IMG/VR virus record: IMGVR_UViG_3300031259_000409
Location: 1-36,146 of that record
Source of the DNA: a virus
Direction: 5' to 3' (one strand)
DNA length: 36,146 nucleotides
Shown here: positions 1,649 to 23,967 of the stretch, piece by piece
Layout: every line of letters begins with the position of its first letter
How positions within the stretch are numbered: position 1 is the stretch's first letter
Made by a program: the position numbers and the translations under genes
Notes under the pieces: model-generated
Seen by the model: the letters and a program-made list of their open reading frames with translations, nothing else
Told to the model about the DNA's origin: nothing
The model's database searches: none

Positions 1649-1717
1649 TGGGGTTGTCGGGCGTTGGAAGCGCCGGGCAACTTCAAGGCCGGAGGAGGCC
1701 AATCAGTGACAACCCCA
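1649..1717 (+). promoter_or_regulatory. Structured leader RNA of HNH-AP2 gene A
   Basis: Three helices can be drawn. P1 is TGGGGTTG (1649-1656) with CAACCCCA (1710-1717), eight perfect pairs linking the leader to codons 2-4 of the gene. P2 is GGCGTT/AGCGCC (1660-1665 with 1669-1674; four GC pairs plus T-G and T-A). P3 is GGCC (1687-1690)/GGCC (1697-1700) with loop GGAGGA, which is the SD. The GTG start (1706-1708) lies between P3 and the 3' strand of P1. The same layout precedes genes B and C with different bases. The box before P1 is GTAGCATGGGG, where TAGCAT could also act as a -10 element; no convincing -35 was found. The fold is inferred by eye. Confidence 0.6.
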
Positions 1718-3632: not shown

Positions 3633-6221
3633 CTACATGCGCCTGCCGACCCGCCCATGCCCCAGCCTCGCCGGCTCCTCCGAAGTCCGAACCTCTTGGC
3701 TGAGCTGGATGCGGTAGATGTTCAGCGAGTGGCCGTCGAGTCCCGACTCCTGCATCGCCCGTAACTTCTCCTCATTCTCGACCGCCTTGGGCTTCTTGCC
3801 GGGCTCTAGTTTGCTCTTGAGGCCATAGCGGCAGTTATGGACCAGTATCCCGTTGGCGAAGAACTCGTGTGCGTCTTCAACTTCCAGGTCGTACACGTCC
3901 GCGAATCCCGCCGTTTCTAATCCGCAGAGCCGCACGGCATTGGAGGCTGCACGTTCGCACCTTGTCGTAGAGATTCCTGAGAACAACATCGCCACAAATG
4001 ACGCAAGCGACCTCGACATAATCAACTTGATTGTCTCGGCGCCACTTTGACTTGCAGGCGTTGGAGCAGAATCGCTGATTTTCGCTTCCTTGGAAGTCTC
4101 CATTGCAGCAATGACAGACTTTTGGAACCAACTTCTTTTCACCGAATTTACATACCTTGGCGTGTCCTCTGTGCCACTCTTTTCCAGCAGGGGAGTTGTG
4201 CCAATCTTTTGCTGCGAGGGAGGCTTTAGCCATATTGATCTTGGCTTGGGCGAGGCGCTCAGGGCCATGCTTGGCCGCATGTTGCTTCGGAGTGAGGCAC
4301 TCCAGATCGTCAACATTCGTAGTGCTCTTTGGACAGCGTTCCTTATGGTGGATGTGCATCCGACTTGGGATACGACCGAAGGTTTGAATCCATACCTGCC
4401 GATGCAAGAAACCTTTTCCACAAGCGTAGTACCCATCCTTGCGGATTTTGTAGACATCGCCGTTAAATTCAATGAACTCCACGACATAAGTTCATCACCG
4501 TAACGGACAGTATTCAATGGCAAAAACCCCCTGTCTGTCCAGAATTCATGGTCGGGAGTGCAATGTATTTCTCTTCCATCCGAGAACAGTGCGCGAACTA
4601 TTGGCGCGCCCGCGCGGTTCTTCCAGGCATTGACCACGCGCCTCCACCCTGAGCGCGTCATCACGTAATCGTTCCACCGCACCTGCTCGATCGGAACCTG
4701 CCCGCGCGCGGTCCAAATCAGCGTCCCGGCGACAAAGCAGGAGTCAAGACAATCCATTTCGATCTTCGCCGCGCCGATATCGGTTTTCAGAATTACTTCC
4801 AGGCGTTTTGGATCGCGCATAGCGAGCGGGATAGCCGACACCAGCTCAACACAGTTGGCCGAGATCAGCCAAACCTCTTCGCCGCGCTGCCCTTTTCGCT
4901 TGGTCGCCAGCATCAACTTCGACATCAAACCCCAGCCGCCCTCAAGGTCGTTGTCAGCCGCTCGCGGATAAGGCATCTCGGACGCCATAAGAATCTCGCC
5001 CTCGGTCTGGGCGATGGTGTTCTTGCTGTTCTTCTTGCCGAACGCATCAGGCGAAAGAAAGAAGTCAGACAATTGCTTCCGCTCGGTTTCAGGAGTCAAC
5101 TCTACGATCTTCCGAGCGATATCTTCCTCGTCCAACTCTCTGCCTCCACCAGAGTCCGGAGCCGCCTCGCCACCCGCCACGTACTCCCGGTAGGTGATGA
5201 TGACCTTGAGAGCGTAGCGCACGTCCCAGCCGAGAAACTTCTTAATCTCCATTGGAGACATCTCGCCCATGGCATGCCAGTAGGTGATGCAGTAGTGGCC
5301 GCGGGCCCAGTCCTGCGACAGCCACCGCTCCCACCACGGCTTAATCATCTCCCGAATGTCTTCCGGCGGCCGCACGCTGGCGTTACGGTCAAATGATCTG
5401 GTAAAGTAAGCGCCTTCGAGTGAATCCCACGAGCCGTCGAAGTCGCGCGCGACCAGAGCCTCATCTTGGCTAACCAGGGCTTTACCGTAGTCCGAACGGG
5501 TTGCGCAGTATTCGCGCCGCTTCGAGATGGGCCAGGAATAGTAATCCTCGACTGTCAGACCATCGGCCTGGAGCGCCGGCCGGACCCACTCGCAGTTGTC
5601 GTAGGGGAAGAAGTGGACGAAAGCAAAAGACTTGGGATCTTCGCGCTCATTGAACTCATCGTCGTGGAACTTCTTGCGTAGGAAGCCGATGCCCACGCCG
5701 CCCATGTTGAAAGCAAGGATGAGCTTGCATGTGCCTTCGGGAACGTCGGGCCAACGGACGGCTTGCTTGATTTCGCGGAGTTCCTCTTCCGTGAATTGCT
5801 CGGCCTGGTCAACGGCAATATCGAAATAGTTGGCGGACCGGAACCGGCGGATCACATCATCGAGAGTTTCGGCGTAGTTGAACTCAATCTGAGATGGTGC
5901 GCCATTCGCAAAGGGTAGAGTGATCTTGCGGTCGCCTTTGTGGTAGCAATCTCGCAACTGGGGCCACGCGCGCAGCATGGCGTCCTCGTGGTACTTGCGC
6001 ACCTGGTCTGAGTTGCGCATGACGATAGTGCCGAGAGTGCCTGGGTTGGCTAGCCGCCGGGCCAACATGACGGACTGAACGCAGCGGGACTTTGCGCCGC
6101 CGCGGCCGCCACCTCCCCCGATCCACGTCGCATCATTGCCTTCGGCTAGGTCGAGAACATCGCCCTGTTTGGGCTGGAAAACTAGAAGTGGATTATAGAG
6201 AGGGGTCGGGGTCTGCGCCAT
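3633..6221 (-). CDS. terL: Terminase large subunit, interrupted by an intein
   Basis: 862 residues as translated: N-extein 1-494, intein 495-796, C-extein 797-862, giving a mature protein of about 560 residues, normal for TerL. The Walker A-like loop GGGGGRGGAKSR is at 35-46, and a Walker B-like FDIAVDQAEQF lies near 131-141. The C-terminal RNase H-like nuclease ends in DCLDS/CRYGLKSK, where family members typically have D-x2-D-A-x-RYGL. The intein is therefore inserted in the nuclease metal-site motif, with Cys as the +1 residue. TerL is the ATP-driven motor that packages DNA through the portal and cuts concatemers; it should be inactive as a nuclease until splicing. AAGGAG lies 4 bases before ATG 6221, and the start overlaps terS by 29 bases. 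It is the last gene of the minus-strand operon. Confidence 0.94.
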   Translation of the reverse strand: MAQTPTPLYNPLLVFQPKQGDVLDLAEGNDATWIGGGGGRGGAKSRCVQSVMLARRLANPGTLGTIVMRNSDQVRKYHEDAMLRAWPQLRDCYHKGDRKITLPFANGAPSQIEFNYAETLDDVIRRFRSANYFDIAVDQAEQFTEEELREIKQAVRWPDVPEGTCKLILAFNMGGVGIGFLRKKFHDDEFNEREDPKSFAFVHFFPYDNCEWVRPALQADGLTVEDYYSWPISKRREYCATRSDYGKALVSQDEALVARDFDGSWDSLEGAYFTRSFDRNASVRPPEDIREMIKPWWERWLSQDWARGHYCITYWHAMGEMSPMEIKKFLGWDVRYALKVIITYREYVAGGEAAPDSGGGRELDEEDIARKIVELTPETERKQLSDFFLSPDAFGKKNSKNTIAQTEGEILMASEMPYPRAADNDLEGGWGLMSKLMLATKRKGQRGEEVWLISANCVELVSAIPLAMRDPKRLEVILKTDIGAAKIEMDCLDSCFVAGTLIWTARGQVPIEQVRWNDYVMTRSGWRRVVNAWKNRAGAPIVRALFSDGREIHCTPDHEFWTDRGFLPLNTVRYGDELMSWSSLNLTAMSTKSARMGTTLVEKVSCIGRYGFKPSVVSQVGCTSTIRNAVQRALRMLTIWSASLRSNMRPSMALSASPKPRSIWLKPPSQQKIGTTPLLEKSGTEDTPRYVNSVKRSWFQKSVIAAMETSKEAKISDSAPTPASQSGAETIKLIMSRSLASFVAMLFSGISTTRCERAASNAVRLCGLETAGFADVYDLEVEDAHEFFANGILVHNCRYGLKSKLEPGKKPKAVENEEKLRAMQESGLDGHSLNIYRIQLSQEVRTSEEPARLGHGRVGRRM
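3834..4739 (-). other. Intein within TerL (302 residues), splicing residues intact
   Basis: Block A begins at Cys1 (codon 4739-4737): CFVAGTLIWTARGQVPIEQV. Block B is GREIHCTPDHEFW with the TxxH residues at intein positions 61-64. Blocks F and G are VYDLEVEDAHEFFANG and ILVHN, ending at Asn (codon 3836-3834) followed by Cys+1. These are all the residues needed for class 1 protein splicing, so excision is expected. The stretch between about intein residues 87 and 280 reads as Ser/Thr/Lys-rich sequence with no recognisable endonuclease in this frame. The same DNA encodes an HNH enzyme in a shifted frame, and that gene's stop lies inside block F. Inteins in terminase motifs are established; this nested arrangement is the unusual part. 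Confidence 0.93.
3877..4482 (-). CDS. HNH homing endonuclease nested out of frame inside the TerL intein
   Basis: 201 residues from GTG 4482; the frame is open four codons further upstream, to a TGA. The N-terminal part is a classic phage HNH domain: GDVYKIRKDGYYACGKGFLH, then RIPSRMHIHHKERCP (HH pair) and VDDLECLTPKQHAAKH. Two Cys-pair modules follow, VCHCCNGDF...RFCSNAC and ACVICGDV...TCSLQC, typical of zinc-finger tails on such enzymes. It is read one frame off from TerL-intein, and the intein frame has no stop over the same ~200 codons. It presumably spreads the intein by cutting intein-free terL alleles. No strong SD was found before GTG 4482 (a weak GGTGA lies further back), so translation may depend on terL ribosomes or on frameshifting. 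Confidence 0.85.
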   Translation of the reverse strand: MEFIEFNGDVYKIRKDGYYACGKGFLHRQVWIQTFGRIPSRMHIHHKERCPKSTTNVDDLECLTPKQHAAKHGPERLAQAKINMAKASLAAKDWHNSPAGKEWHRGHAKVCKFGEKKLVPKVCHCCNGDFQGSENQRFCSNACKSKWRRDNQVDYVEVACVICGDVVLRNLYDKVRTCSLQCRAALRIRNGGIRGRVRPGS

Positions 6222-18631: not shown

Positions 18632-18643
18632 TTTGCTCCAACG

Positions 18644-18666
18644 AAAAGCCGCCCCAAAAGGCGGCT
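18644..18666 (-). terminator. Rho-independent terminator after the HNH pair
   Basis: On the minus strand AGCCGCC (18666-18660) pairs with GGCGGCT (18653-18647) around a 6-base loop, TTTTGG, followed by TTTT. It lies 24 bases after the stop of the HNH gene at 18690 and just before the next tail gene. It therefore ends transcripts of the tail-nozzle/HNH segment and isolates the two endonucleases from the downstream virion genes. Confidence 0.8.
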
Positions 18667-18689
18667 ATTAGTACGATTTCGACTCAAAA

Positions 18690-19139
18690 CTACGCGAACA
18701 AAAGCATGGGCTGCGGTTCTGGTTTTCTTGCCTTCGCCATACGTTTGGCTAAAGCCGTCGTTTCCGCTTTGTGGCATGCCGTGCAGAGCGTTCTGTAATT
18801 TTCGATTCCGCATTCTCCCCCGCCCTCGGCGACCGGAGTTATGTGGTCTGCTTGCCATAGATGGCCAGTCCCCTGGGAGCGGCGGCGCTTCTCGAACACC
18901 GTGCCTGCCAAGGTGTCTCTCCTACATCCCGCACAGATACCGTTATCCCTTCTGAATACGACCAGCCGTGCGTAACTCGGACTCGTCAAAATACGGAACT
19001 CATCGGAGCATTTCTTGGTGCAAAAAGTGTATCGCTTCCTATCGACTATGTCCGAATCACAATGTAGGCAAGCGAGACGCCCATTTTTTCCCATTAGTTG
19101 CTTTTTGCTGTAGGCGCGATGTCTCCTAATCGTGCTCAT
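18690..19139 (-). CDS. HNH endonuclease, McrA-like, with N-terminal zinc knuckle (copy D)
   Basis: 149 residues. An N-terminal C-x2-C ... C-x3-C element (Cys 24, 27, 40, 44) precedes the HNH domain: ICAGCRRD (~68-75), WQADHITPVAEGGGE (DH at ~97-98), then IENYRTLCTACHKAET. The two CxxC pairs around the HNH fold are the structural zinc site of McrA-type HNH nucleases, and the catalytic His is present. Its start overlaps the stop of endonuclease C by four bases, so the two are co-translated as a pair inserted between tail genes. This HNH subtype is different from the HNH-AP2 copies. It could be a second homing enzyme or a DNA-processing nuclease; position and pairing favour homing. Confidence 0.88.
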   Translation of the reverse strand: MSTIRRHRAYSKKQLMGKNGRLACLHCDSDIVDRKRYTFCTKKCSDEFRILTSPSYARLVVFRRDNGICAGCRRDTLAGTVFEKRRRSQGTGHLWQADHITPVAEGGGECGIENYRTLCTACHKAETTALAKRMAKARKPEPQPMLLFA

Positions 19140-19693
19140 AAGACCCTCGCAAACTTGCCGTGGAGTTCGAGTGCAGCCGGGACGTACAGTTCGCGGTGCG
19201 CGGCCTCGGCAGTCGATCTACTGCCAAGAAACCTGTTTTTTCCGCCGACCATAATATTTGCTTGGTAGACGTTGCCGTGGAGAGCAACCCCCTTAAACCC
19301 GGAAGTGTTGTCGCTGCGGACCTTTCTATTGCACGCATTCTGTGACACCGTCGAAGCTCGTAACTTGTTCCTCCGATTATCGAGAGTTACCCCGTGCTCG
19401 TGGTCGCCATGCCGCTTGTCGCCACGCTTTAATCCCAGTACCGCTCGATGCATCTTGAGTTGGTTATTCCTTCCATCAATTCGGATGAGCCTCTGCGCAT
19501 AAAAGGTCTTGGTGAACTTGCTCCATACGGCGCTCCAAGTGTTTTTGCTCAGCCAAAGATAATCCTCAAGCCACACTAAGGAAAATTGGCATTGTGTCAG
19601 TGGAATCAGTTTGCAGTAAACGCCGTCGATCTTGAACGGCGCGGCGTCGTCGAAGAAGTCGCGTGGTAGTCTGTCAGTGAACGGGGATGCCAT
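19136..19693 (-). CDS. HNH homing endonuclease with AP2 domain (copy C)
   Basis: 185 residues from ATG 19693, chosen because GAGGAG lies 7 bases upstream; the frame stays open to 19777, but that would overlap the nozzle gene and lacks an SD. The segment DDAAPFKIDGVYCKLIPLT is shared with copy B almost word for word. The HNH core is KRHGDHEHGVTLDNRRNKLR, keeping DH and DNRRxxLR; the residue after DH departs from the DHIDG seen in copy A. The AP2 module runs from GFKGVALHGNVYQANI to LGSRSTAEAAHREL, and the end is HGKFARVL. It lies directly behind the nozzle gene and is coupled to HNH copy D downstream. Activity is plausible but less certain than for A because the core deviates. Confidence 0.9.
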   Translation of the reverse strand: MASPFTDRLPRDFFDDAAPFKIDGVYCKLIPLTQCQFSLVWLEDYLWLSKNTWSAVWSKFTKTFYAQRLIRIDGRNNQLKMHRAVLGLKRGDKRHGDHEHGVTLDNRRNKLRASTVSQNACNRKVRSDNTSGFKGVALHGNVYQANIMVGGKNRFLGSRSTAEAAHRELYVPAALELHGKFARVL

Positions 19694-19750
19694 TGATTCG
19701 CTCCTCATAGCGATGATTTGAGCGGGCGCTGATACGCTCCGCGTCCCCAT
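19681..19750 (-). promoter_or_regulatory. Structured leader RNA of HNH-AP2 gene C
   Basis: Same plan as the leaders of A and B with different bases. P1: ATGGGGA (19750-19744) pairs with TCCCCGT (19687-19681), seven pairs including one T-G wobble. P2: GAGCG/CGCTC (19739-19735 with 19724-19720). P3: TCGCT/AGCGA (19713-19709 with 19702-19698), with loop ATGAGG carrying part of the SD. The ATG (19693-19691) sits between P3 and the 3' strand of P1. The box GTAGAATGGGG begins two bases after the nozzle stop and contains TAGAAT preceded by TG one base earlier, a possible extended -10. Confidence 0.58.
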
Positions 19751-19760
19751 TCTACACCGA

Positions 19761-23192: not shown

Positions 23193-23234
23193 CCTACTGA
23201 TAACACTCGGAGTTCCTGAAAAGTTAGCCGTAAA

Positions 23235-23891
23235 TCACTCTCGAAAGTTCAGATTTGCAAATTCACCGTGATACTGCCTTGCTGCCGCATCGCGTTTCTT
23301 GGCTGCCTCTATTGCTGTATTTGAGACGCCGAGGTAAATCTGTTTGCCGTCGGCCTGCAATACAGATGAGAACTTCTTACCTTTGACATATACCCCAATG
23401 AATCCAGTCGTGTTGTCCTTGCGCATTGAAGCGTTCTTGACGTTTTCGCGCTGGTCGCATGGACGCAAGTTCTTGCGCCTGTTATCAATGCCGCATCGAT
23501 TGATGTGGTCTCGCTTTTCTCCCTTTGGGACTCCAAGCAGGTAGTTCTGCATCTTGACGCCGTTGCGATCTGTAGCGTAAAAGCCATTTGCCCCGCTCCT
23601 GATCCGCACAGCTTGCCAGCTAACCCGCATCGCTGTGAGGTAGTCATCTGCATCGACAATTGCATGGAGTCCTTTGGTGAGCGGAACGAGCCGACAGTAA
23701 ACACCACCAATCTTGAATGGAGCGGCGTCTTCTGGAAGCCTTGGATTGATTTTGTGGCCCGGTAGAAAGCGGTGCGGCTGACCTTTGACCTCATGGTTTC
23801 TCGTGTGATTACGAATAGCCACAGTCGTCTTGCCGCCGCAGCCACAGTGGCAGAAGCCGTAGGGTACACTGATTCCTGATGGGGTTGGCAT
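23235..23891 (-). CDS. HNH homing endonuclease with AP2 domain and N-terminal Cys motif (copy B)
   Basis: 218 residues from ATG 23891 with GGAGGAG 6 bases upstream. The N-terminus has a C-x-C-x-C element (FCHCGCGGKT) followed by KGQPHRFLPGHK, a motif found at the front of many phage HNH proteins and absent from copies A and C. Then come DAAPFKIGGVYCRLVPLT, shared with C, and the HNH core KRDHINRCGIDNRRKNLR. The AP2-like module follows (GFIGVYVKGKKFSSVL, QIYLGVSNTAIEAAKK), and the end is YHGEFANLNFRE. The catalytic DH and the DNRRxNLR helix are kept. It sits between a small structural gene and the nozzle gene. Together with A and C it forms a three-copy family in one genome. Confidence 0.9.
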   Translation of the reverse strand: MPTPSGISVPYGFCHCGCGGKTTVAIRNHTRNHEVKGQPHRFLPGHKINPRLPEDAAPFKIGGVYCRLVPLTKGLHAIVDADDYLTAMRVSWQAVRIRSGANGFYATDRNGVKMQNYLLGVPKGEKRDHINRCGIDNRRKNLRPCDQRENVKNASMRKDNTTGFIGVYVKGKKFSSVLQADGKQIYLGVSNTAIEAAKKRDAAARQYHGEFANLNFRE

Positions 23892-23946
23892 GGATTGCTC
23901 CTCCAGAGCATGAAGTGATGGGCGTTCTCAGCGCCCACAACCCCAT
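23879..23946 (-). promoter_or_regulatory. Structured leader RNA of HNH-AP2 gene B (strongest example)
   Basis: P1: ATGGGGTTG (23946-23938) pairs perfectly over nine bases with CAACCCCAT (23887-23879) inside codons 2-5. P2: TGGGCG/CGCCCA (23937-23932 with 23924-23919), loop CTGAGAA. P3: TGCTC/GAGCA (23910-23906 with 23900-23896), loop TGGAG; P3 and its loop contain the SD GGAGGAG. The ATG (23891-23889) lies between P3 and P1. The GTAGAATGGGG box precedes P1, 21 bases after the upstream stop. If folded, the start site is enclosed by P1 and the SD partly paired, so initiation should be restricted. Confidence 0.65.
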
Positions 23947-23967
23947 TCTACCCCATACCTTCGCCTT

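Follow-up and report, generated by a model that had tools for sequence, protein, structure and literature searches.

A family of phage leader RNAs, in which a promoter and a structure over the translation start share the same nucleotides, is best explained as a sensor of transcript origin, off on read-through mRNA and on when transcription starts from the leader's own promoter; from sequence and folding models we put the probability of this reading at about 0.72. Three members lie in the 36,146-nucleotide stretch of phage DNA analysed here (IMG/VR record IMGVR_UViG_3300031259_000409, positions 1 to 36,146; ‘the window’), each before an HNH-AP2 endonuclease gene. The 5′ strand of a long-range helix, P1, coincides with the promoter discriminator (+1 to about +9 after the −10 element) and its 3′ strand falls within the opening codons of the gene; P1 would close a three-way junction containing two hairpins, one bearing the Shine-Dalgarno (SD). 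An mRNA reading through from upstream genes would carry the whole leader, P1 would form and the start region would be hidden, whereas an mRNA from the own promoter, beginning about 7 nt after the −10, would come without the P1 5′ strand and have its start region open. Because its own transcripts would be free of that strand, a mobile nuclease gene could sit directly behind an essential gene, staying untranslated on the latter's transcripts yet being made on its own schedule. The activity of the promoter, its start site, the repression of translation and the timing of expression are inferred. An earlier note on this DNA had proposed a cis-acting switch that keeps the endonuclease gene quiet: the covarying RNA pairing with the start region stands, and a block on read-through transcripts, presumably exerted on translation, is its best explanation, but the embedded promoter, which would turn a plain off-structure into a switch, had been missed.

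The window leaders are at 1649-1717 (+), 23946-23879 (−) and 19750-19681 (−), and share the order first described for them, here termed type I: −10, P1, P2, P3 with the SD, start codon and then the P1 3′ strand (P1′) in codons 2-5, with 51-64 nt from −10 to start codon in this type. The GTAG(A/C)ATGGGG motif reported as a single box is present, and is a −10 hexamer (TAGAAT or TAGCAT) fused to the 5′ strand of P1. In leader 1 (+ strand) the −10-like hexamer TAGCAT (1644-1649), its TAG being the stop codon of DnaB, is preceded by TGG (extended −10) and runs into the P1 5′ strand TGGGGTTGTC on the promoter discriminator (1649-1658); hairpins P2 (GGCGTT/AGCGCC, 1660-1674) and P3 (GGCC/GGCC, with the SD GGAGGA as loop, 1687-1700) follow, and the P1 3′ strand GACAACCCCA (1708-1717) overlaps the GTG start (1706-1708) and codons 2-4, giving a helix of 10 bp. 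Leader 2 (− strand) has TAGAAT at 23945-23950, the P1 5′ strand ATGGGGTTG at 23938-23946, P2 (TGGGCG/CGCCCA) at 23919-23937, P3 (TGCTC/GAGCA, with the SD in loop and 3′ strand) at 23896-23910, an ATG at 23891-23889 and, in codons 2-5, the P1 3′ strand CAACCCCAT at 23879-23887, P1 being 9 bp. The corresponding elements of leader 3 (− strand) are TAGAAT (19749-19754), ATGGGGA (19744-19750), P2 (19721-19742), P3 (TCGCT/AGCGA, with the SD, 19698-19713), ATG (19693-19691) and TCCCCGT (19681-19687), with a P1 of 7 bp including one G-U. The earlier count of 9, 8 and 7 pairs thus holds for leader 3, P1 of leaders 1 and 2 being slightly longer; the three P3 stems are those originally given, with the SD within or beside the loop. 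Folded from just after the −10, the minimum free energy structure of the read-through form of leaders 2 and 3 is exactly P1+P2+P3, and that of leader 1 has P1 with a different interior. Single-sequence folding z-scores for the three, −1.5 to −3.0, are unremarkable to moderate, and the evidence for structure therefore rests on comparison.

A protein search of IMG/VR with HNH gene 2 gave homologues (34-42% identity for the full-length ones), and five of their loci, L001-L005, keep the layout but differ in P1 sequence, for instance TGGGGCATC/GATGCCCCA, where the start codon is inside P1, GAGGGGTC/GACCCCTC and AGGGGTGTC/GACACCCCT. About 25 more distinct leaders came from three pattern scans, and the layout is common to about 35 additional leaders in IMG/VR phage contigs; seven distinct pattern matches without P2/P3 or −10 (L042/43, L047/53, L052, L054/60, L062, L063/65 and L070) were discarded by eye as chance. 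A covariance model, R1, of the kind the earlier note had suggested, was built from 16 leaders (15 external ones and leader 2); searched against 445 kb, it recovers leader 1 (E=6e-10) and leader 3 (E=3e-7), both held out of the training set, and it also finds L093, a copy no pattern had selected. The excess of compensatory change anticipated at the outset is found in all three helices. In A9, an alignment of 37 leaders fitted to the structure, many of them chosen by P1 pattern and with covariation statistics calculated without a tree, 96.0% of pair cells are in standard pairs vs 80.1% in shuffles, and 91 cells have two-sided changes vs 24.6 (0/500 shuffles as high); the covariation score, similarly qualified, is 0.371 vs 0.089 shuffled, and at most 0.030 when the partner is slid by 1-3 columns.

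Because A9 was fitted to the structure and enriched by P1 pattern, P1 was tested separately on protein-found leaders. In 26 leaders located through their proteins alone, with registers set by hand, 202/234 P1 cells are paired (145.5 when shuffled), and there are 53 two-sided changes vs 16.2 (0/5000). At 21 protein-found loci the 12 bases after the −10 pair with their true start regions at −16.1 kcal/mol, and with those of other loci at −12.4 (sd 0.49), none of 20000 swaps reaching the real value. Finally, of the HNH-AP2 loci, 53 have a −10-like hexamer; at 15 of them (two are near-identical copies) the −10-adjacent bases pair with the start region in a helix of −12 kcal/mol or stronger, the mean number for swapped boxes being 2.1 and the maximum 4. 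Covariation strongly supports the leader structure. Could the leaders nevertheless be just recent copies of each other, with a pairing that does nothing? Those of subgroup A are similar in sequence across different genes, from which it follows that leaders have probably spread by recombination. However, compensatory changes in P1, P2 and P3, judged against shuffles, slides and swaps, and the recurrence of the layout with entirely different P1 sequences make shared ancestry as the sole explanation barely credible.

What of the hexamer? In 48 leaders, for some of which it was part of the search pattern, it reads T45 A47 n A41 A45 T47, with TGn before it in 18/48 (chance about 1/16 each) and no clear signal for a −35 element in the same set. 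It was left unspecified in the GGGGTTG...CAACCCC scan and in the protein searches, and leaders found without specifying promoter bases have TATAAT, TACAAT, TAAAAT, TATTAT and similar; weak versions occur in L002 (GATACA), L071 (GAGTAT) and L050. It is as well conserved as P1, which it adjoins in nearly all leaders. By these features it would be a sigma70-type −10 element, often extended (TGnTATAAT), and probably part of an active promoter. At sigma70 promoters the first transcribed base is about 7 nt beyond the −10, which puts the predicted start of the leaders' own transcripts after GGGGTT.

A truncation scan of type I leaders puts the predicted cost of opening the ribosome site at about 12.9 kcal/mol for a transcript beginning at the first base after the −10; moving the 5′ end two bases downstream lowers it to 10.4, and at the predicted start it is 9.5. 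Opening cost generally rises with RNA length, which accounts for part of the difference between read-through and own transcripts: when the 7 discriminator bases of the long RNA are scrambled, a median of only about 1.5 of the roughly 3.3 kcal/mol is recovered. The −10 takes in the stop codon of the upstream gene in five leaders (W1, L036, L045, L075 and L169), where read-through is therefore hard to avoid. By a crude call on the longest nearby ORF, the upstream gene is on the leader's strand in 26 cases, on the opposite strand in 12 and undetermined in 10; that 12 of the 38 leaders with a call face an opposite-strand ORF counts against the read-through model.

A second architecture, type II (L139, L155, L156, L163, L165, L185, L223, L225, L238, L257, L263, L269, L271 and L278), has the order −10, P1 (e.g. 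AGCGGCTGAAC), SD hairpin, start codon, in-gene hairpin and P1′ at about codons 8-18 (e.g. GTTCAGCCGCT). The two types are alike in enclosing two hairpins, one with the SD, in a P1 that starts on the discriminator and in having the same overlap of −10 and P1. The predicted opening cost of type II goes from 15.1 to about 12.9 kcal/mol, a smaller and later drop than in type I, and L163, L056 and L134 have little or no predicted change.

P1-P2-P3 might instead form on every transcript, as a constitutive damper of translation or as a leader opened in response to a phage or host protein, to temperature or to a metabolite, the −10 being incidental or minor. A three-way junction would suit such a leader, and in one subgroup the junction contains a conserved linker, GCACAYYTCA. 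So would alternative folds: by inspection of A9, UUG(UC) at bases 5-9 after the −10 has two possible partners in many leaders, the one in P1 and the CAA/CACA immediately 3′ of P2, which makes the two folds mutually exclusive. Against this, the linker is not conserved outside its subgroup, no aptamer-like conserved core was seen in the leaders, and a −10 as conserved as P1 adjoins it even where the search had left the −10 unspecified. We regard a signal-opened or constitutive leader as unlikely, and favour a sensor of where the transcript began.

The genes behind the window leaders encode proteins of 168 aa (gene 1, 1706-2212, +, with an HNH_3 match), 218 aa (gene 2, 23235-23891, −, with an N-terminal CxCxCG motif) and 185 aa (gene 3, 19136-19693, −); for genes 2 and 3, which match nothing in Pfam, the HNH-AP2 assignment is by alignment only. 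With an HNH domain and presence or absence among relatives, all three have the sequence hallmarks of free-standing homing endonuclease genes. Insert boundaries were taken from relatives of the window phage with 73-91% DnaB identity. At site 1 the insert (1647-2208, +) lies between the DnaB stop, with which leader 1 begins, and the next ATG, a relative having different sequence there. At site 2 (23193-23967, −), where a relative has a short divergent sequence, the leader comes first, directly after the upstream stop codon, and homology ends at the base of that codon. Site 3 (18632-19760, −) comprises leader 3, gene 3 and a second HNH gene, and is absent from two relatives, in which flanks 78-88% identical join as TAA-TGG/CGG-ATG, with 3 nt between; the window has 1129 bp instead, beginning 6 nt before the −10. 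These boundaries make the leader the 5′ end of each insert, and in this comparison of sequences leader and gene are seen to have been inserted together, as a unit. The second HNH gene (PF01844; 18690-19139, −), also missing from both relatives, is behind leader 3 and gene 3 and is without a leader of its own.

Type I leaders also precede genes for Endonuclease VII, DUF559 proteins, a serine resolvase, an SNF2-type helicase and unknown proteins, as well as CGCL-type HNH genes (assigned by inspection). Proteins of these different families mostly start M[PTSA][TS]P, since P1′ dictates the first codons. It seems somewhat more probable than otherwise that the leader is a portable cassette, ‘read-through-off, own-promoter-on’, placed by phages before unrelated accessory genes of many kinds (nucleases, a recombinase, a helicase) as a general insulator for operon insertion, which comes in at least two topological variants and dictates how the protein begins (M-[PTSA]-[TS]-P).

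The same gene range bears on whether the pairing matters as DNA. I-TevI binds an operator and represses its own late promoter (PMC2988022), and the gene start is enclosed by an inverted repeat, that of the P1 strands, one of which overlaps the promoter; the repeat could be an operator, for instance for autorepression through the AP2 domain, with RNA pairing a by-product. However, P2 and P3 also covary and enclose the SD, the same leader stands before genes for unrelated proteins, and the P1 arms still pair although they differ in sequence and in spacing (47-74 bp), so that an operator is improbable. That the leader ‘travels with’ the HNH-AP2 gene does not hold in that simple form: other families carry it, and by eye only about a quarter of the distinct protein-found HNH-AP2 loci sampled have it, many others having short leaders without it, a proportion that is not an unbiased prevalence as the samples were drawn with leader-bearing queries. 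Most HNH-AP2 homologues elsewhere lack the pairing, a finding the earlier note would have taken as telling against it, and an HNH-AP2-specific leader, neither general among such genes nor confined to them, is rejected. No such leader was found at 14 named-phage loci (6 + 8) of HNH/endonuclease relatives, where R1 finds nothing, and two leaders compared by blastn with 50,697 phage records had no match; one pattern scan of 84,980 bacterial and archaeal species genomes (257 Gb) gave a single chance-like match (L113). The earlier note knew of no named RNA family with this layout, and indeed the Rfam 15 covariance models give no plausible leader match; no description of the family was found in the open-access literature searched.

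Phage morons are accessory genes with their own promoter, and as usually described rely on promoter plus terminator. The leader-borne genes resemble them as accessory genes between essential genes with an own sigma70-type promoter, and differ in the RNA block tied to that promoter. A closer parallel is in T4-type phages, where the leaders of I-TevI, I-TevII, I-TevIII, segB and Aeh1 mobE have a hairpin over the ribosome binding site with a promoter inside or adjoining, and the structure arises only on transcripts from upstream, those from the own promoter being without its 5′ part and being translated (PMC2988022, PMC3014915). In this group the device controls homing endonuclease genes, of which mobE encodes an HNH enzyme (PMC2988022, PMC3014915). 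Likewise long early transcripts of T4 gene e form an inhibitory structure whose 5′ part is missing from late-promoter transcripts, and with soc and 49 its leader takes the device beyond endonucleases (PMC3014915). These three are single-gene structures within T4-type phages and not a recurrent family across gene types. Common to the I-TevI group and the present family are an RNA structure at the translation start, here conserved by covariation, and a promoter so placed that own transcripts would lose one strand, here by the predicted start site. As described, the T4 elements are local hairpins with T4 middle or late promoters in T4-related phages, and it is by those descriptions that they are set apart; the family considered here has a sigma70-type −10, a long-range P1 reaching codons 2-5 or about 8-18, two enclosed hairpins and recurrence over unrelated gene types. 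Lacking the local hairpin with a T4 late or middle promoter, it is not a member of the I-TevI/mobE leader family. The logic is known from T4 I-TevI; the RNA family, the promoter type and the gene range are new. The T4-type device would thereby extend to another promoter class and, in unrelated uncultured phages, to an RNA family that recurs; it would also explain, in a way testable on sequences, how selfish genes can persist within essential operons and avoid ill-timed expression. Many phage nuclease genes would gain correctly annotated promoters and start codons (including GTG), and those wishing to shield an inserted gene from read-through would have a natural design.

Other upstream pairings were encountered. 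Strong helices in L125, L137, L017 and L171 are not of this leader type; the one in L171 (about 1110-1190) is a different block before an HNH-AP2 gene, a perfect 13-bp helix TGGCCTTCTATTG/CAATAGGAGGCCA over the SD, and that upstream of the HNH gene in L137 is a perfect 16-bp helix with a 54-nt loop that starts 4 nt after TATAAT and ends well upstream of the start codon. A third leader type is possible: upstream of an HNH gene in L131, L122 and L301 (Salmonella phage SB28), a GCAGCTA-type box lies some nt beyond TATAAT and has its complement further downstream, as in GCAGCTA/TAGCTGC and TTGCGGC/GCCGCAA, the pairing in L301 being of only about 5 bp. Lastly, a terminase-like ORF of the window (3633-6221, −; weak Terminase_3 match) carries an intein at about 3831-4739, with Hint/intein N- and C-terminal motifs over residues 495-797, and within the intein-coding stretch, on the same strand in another reading frame, is an HNH_3 ORF of 201 aa (3877-4482, −).
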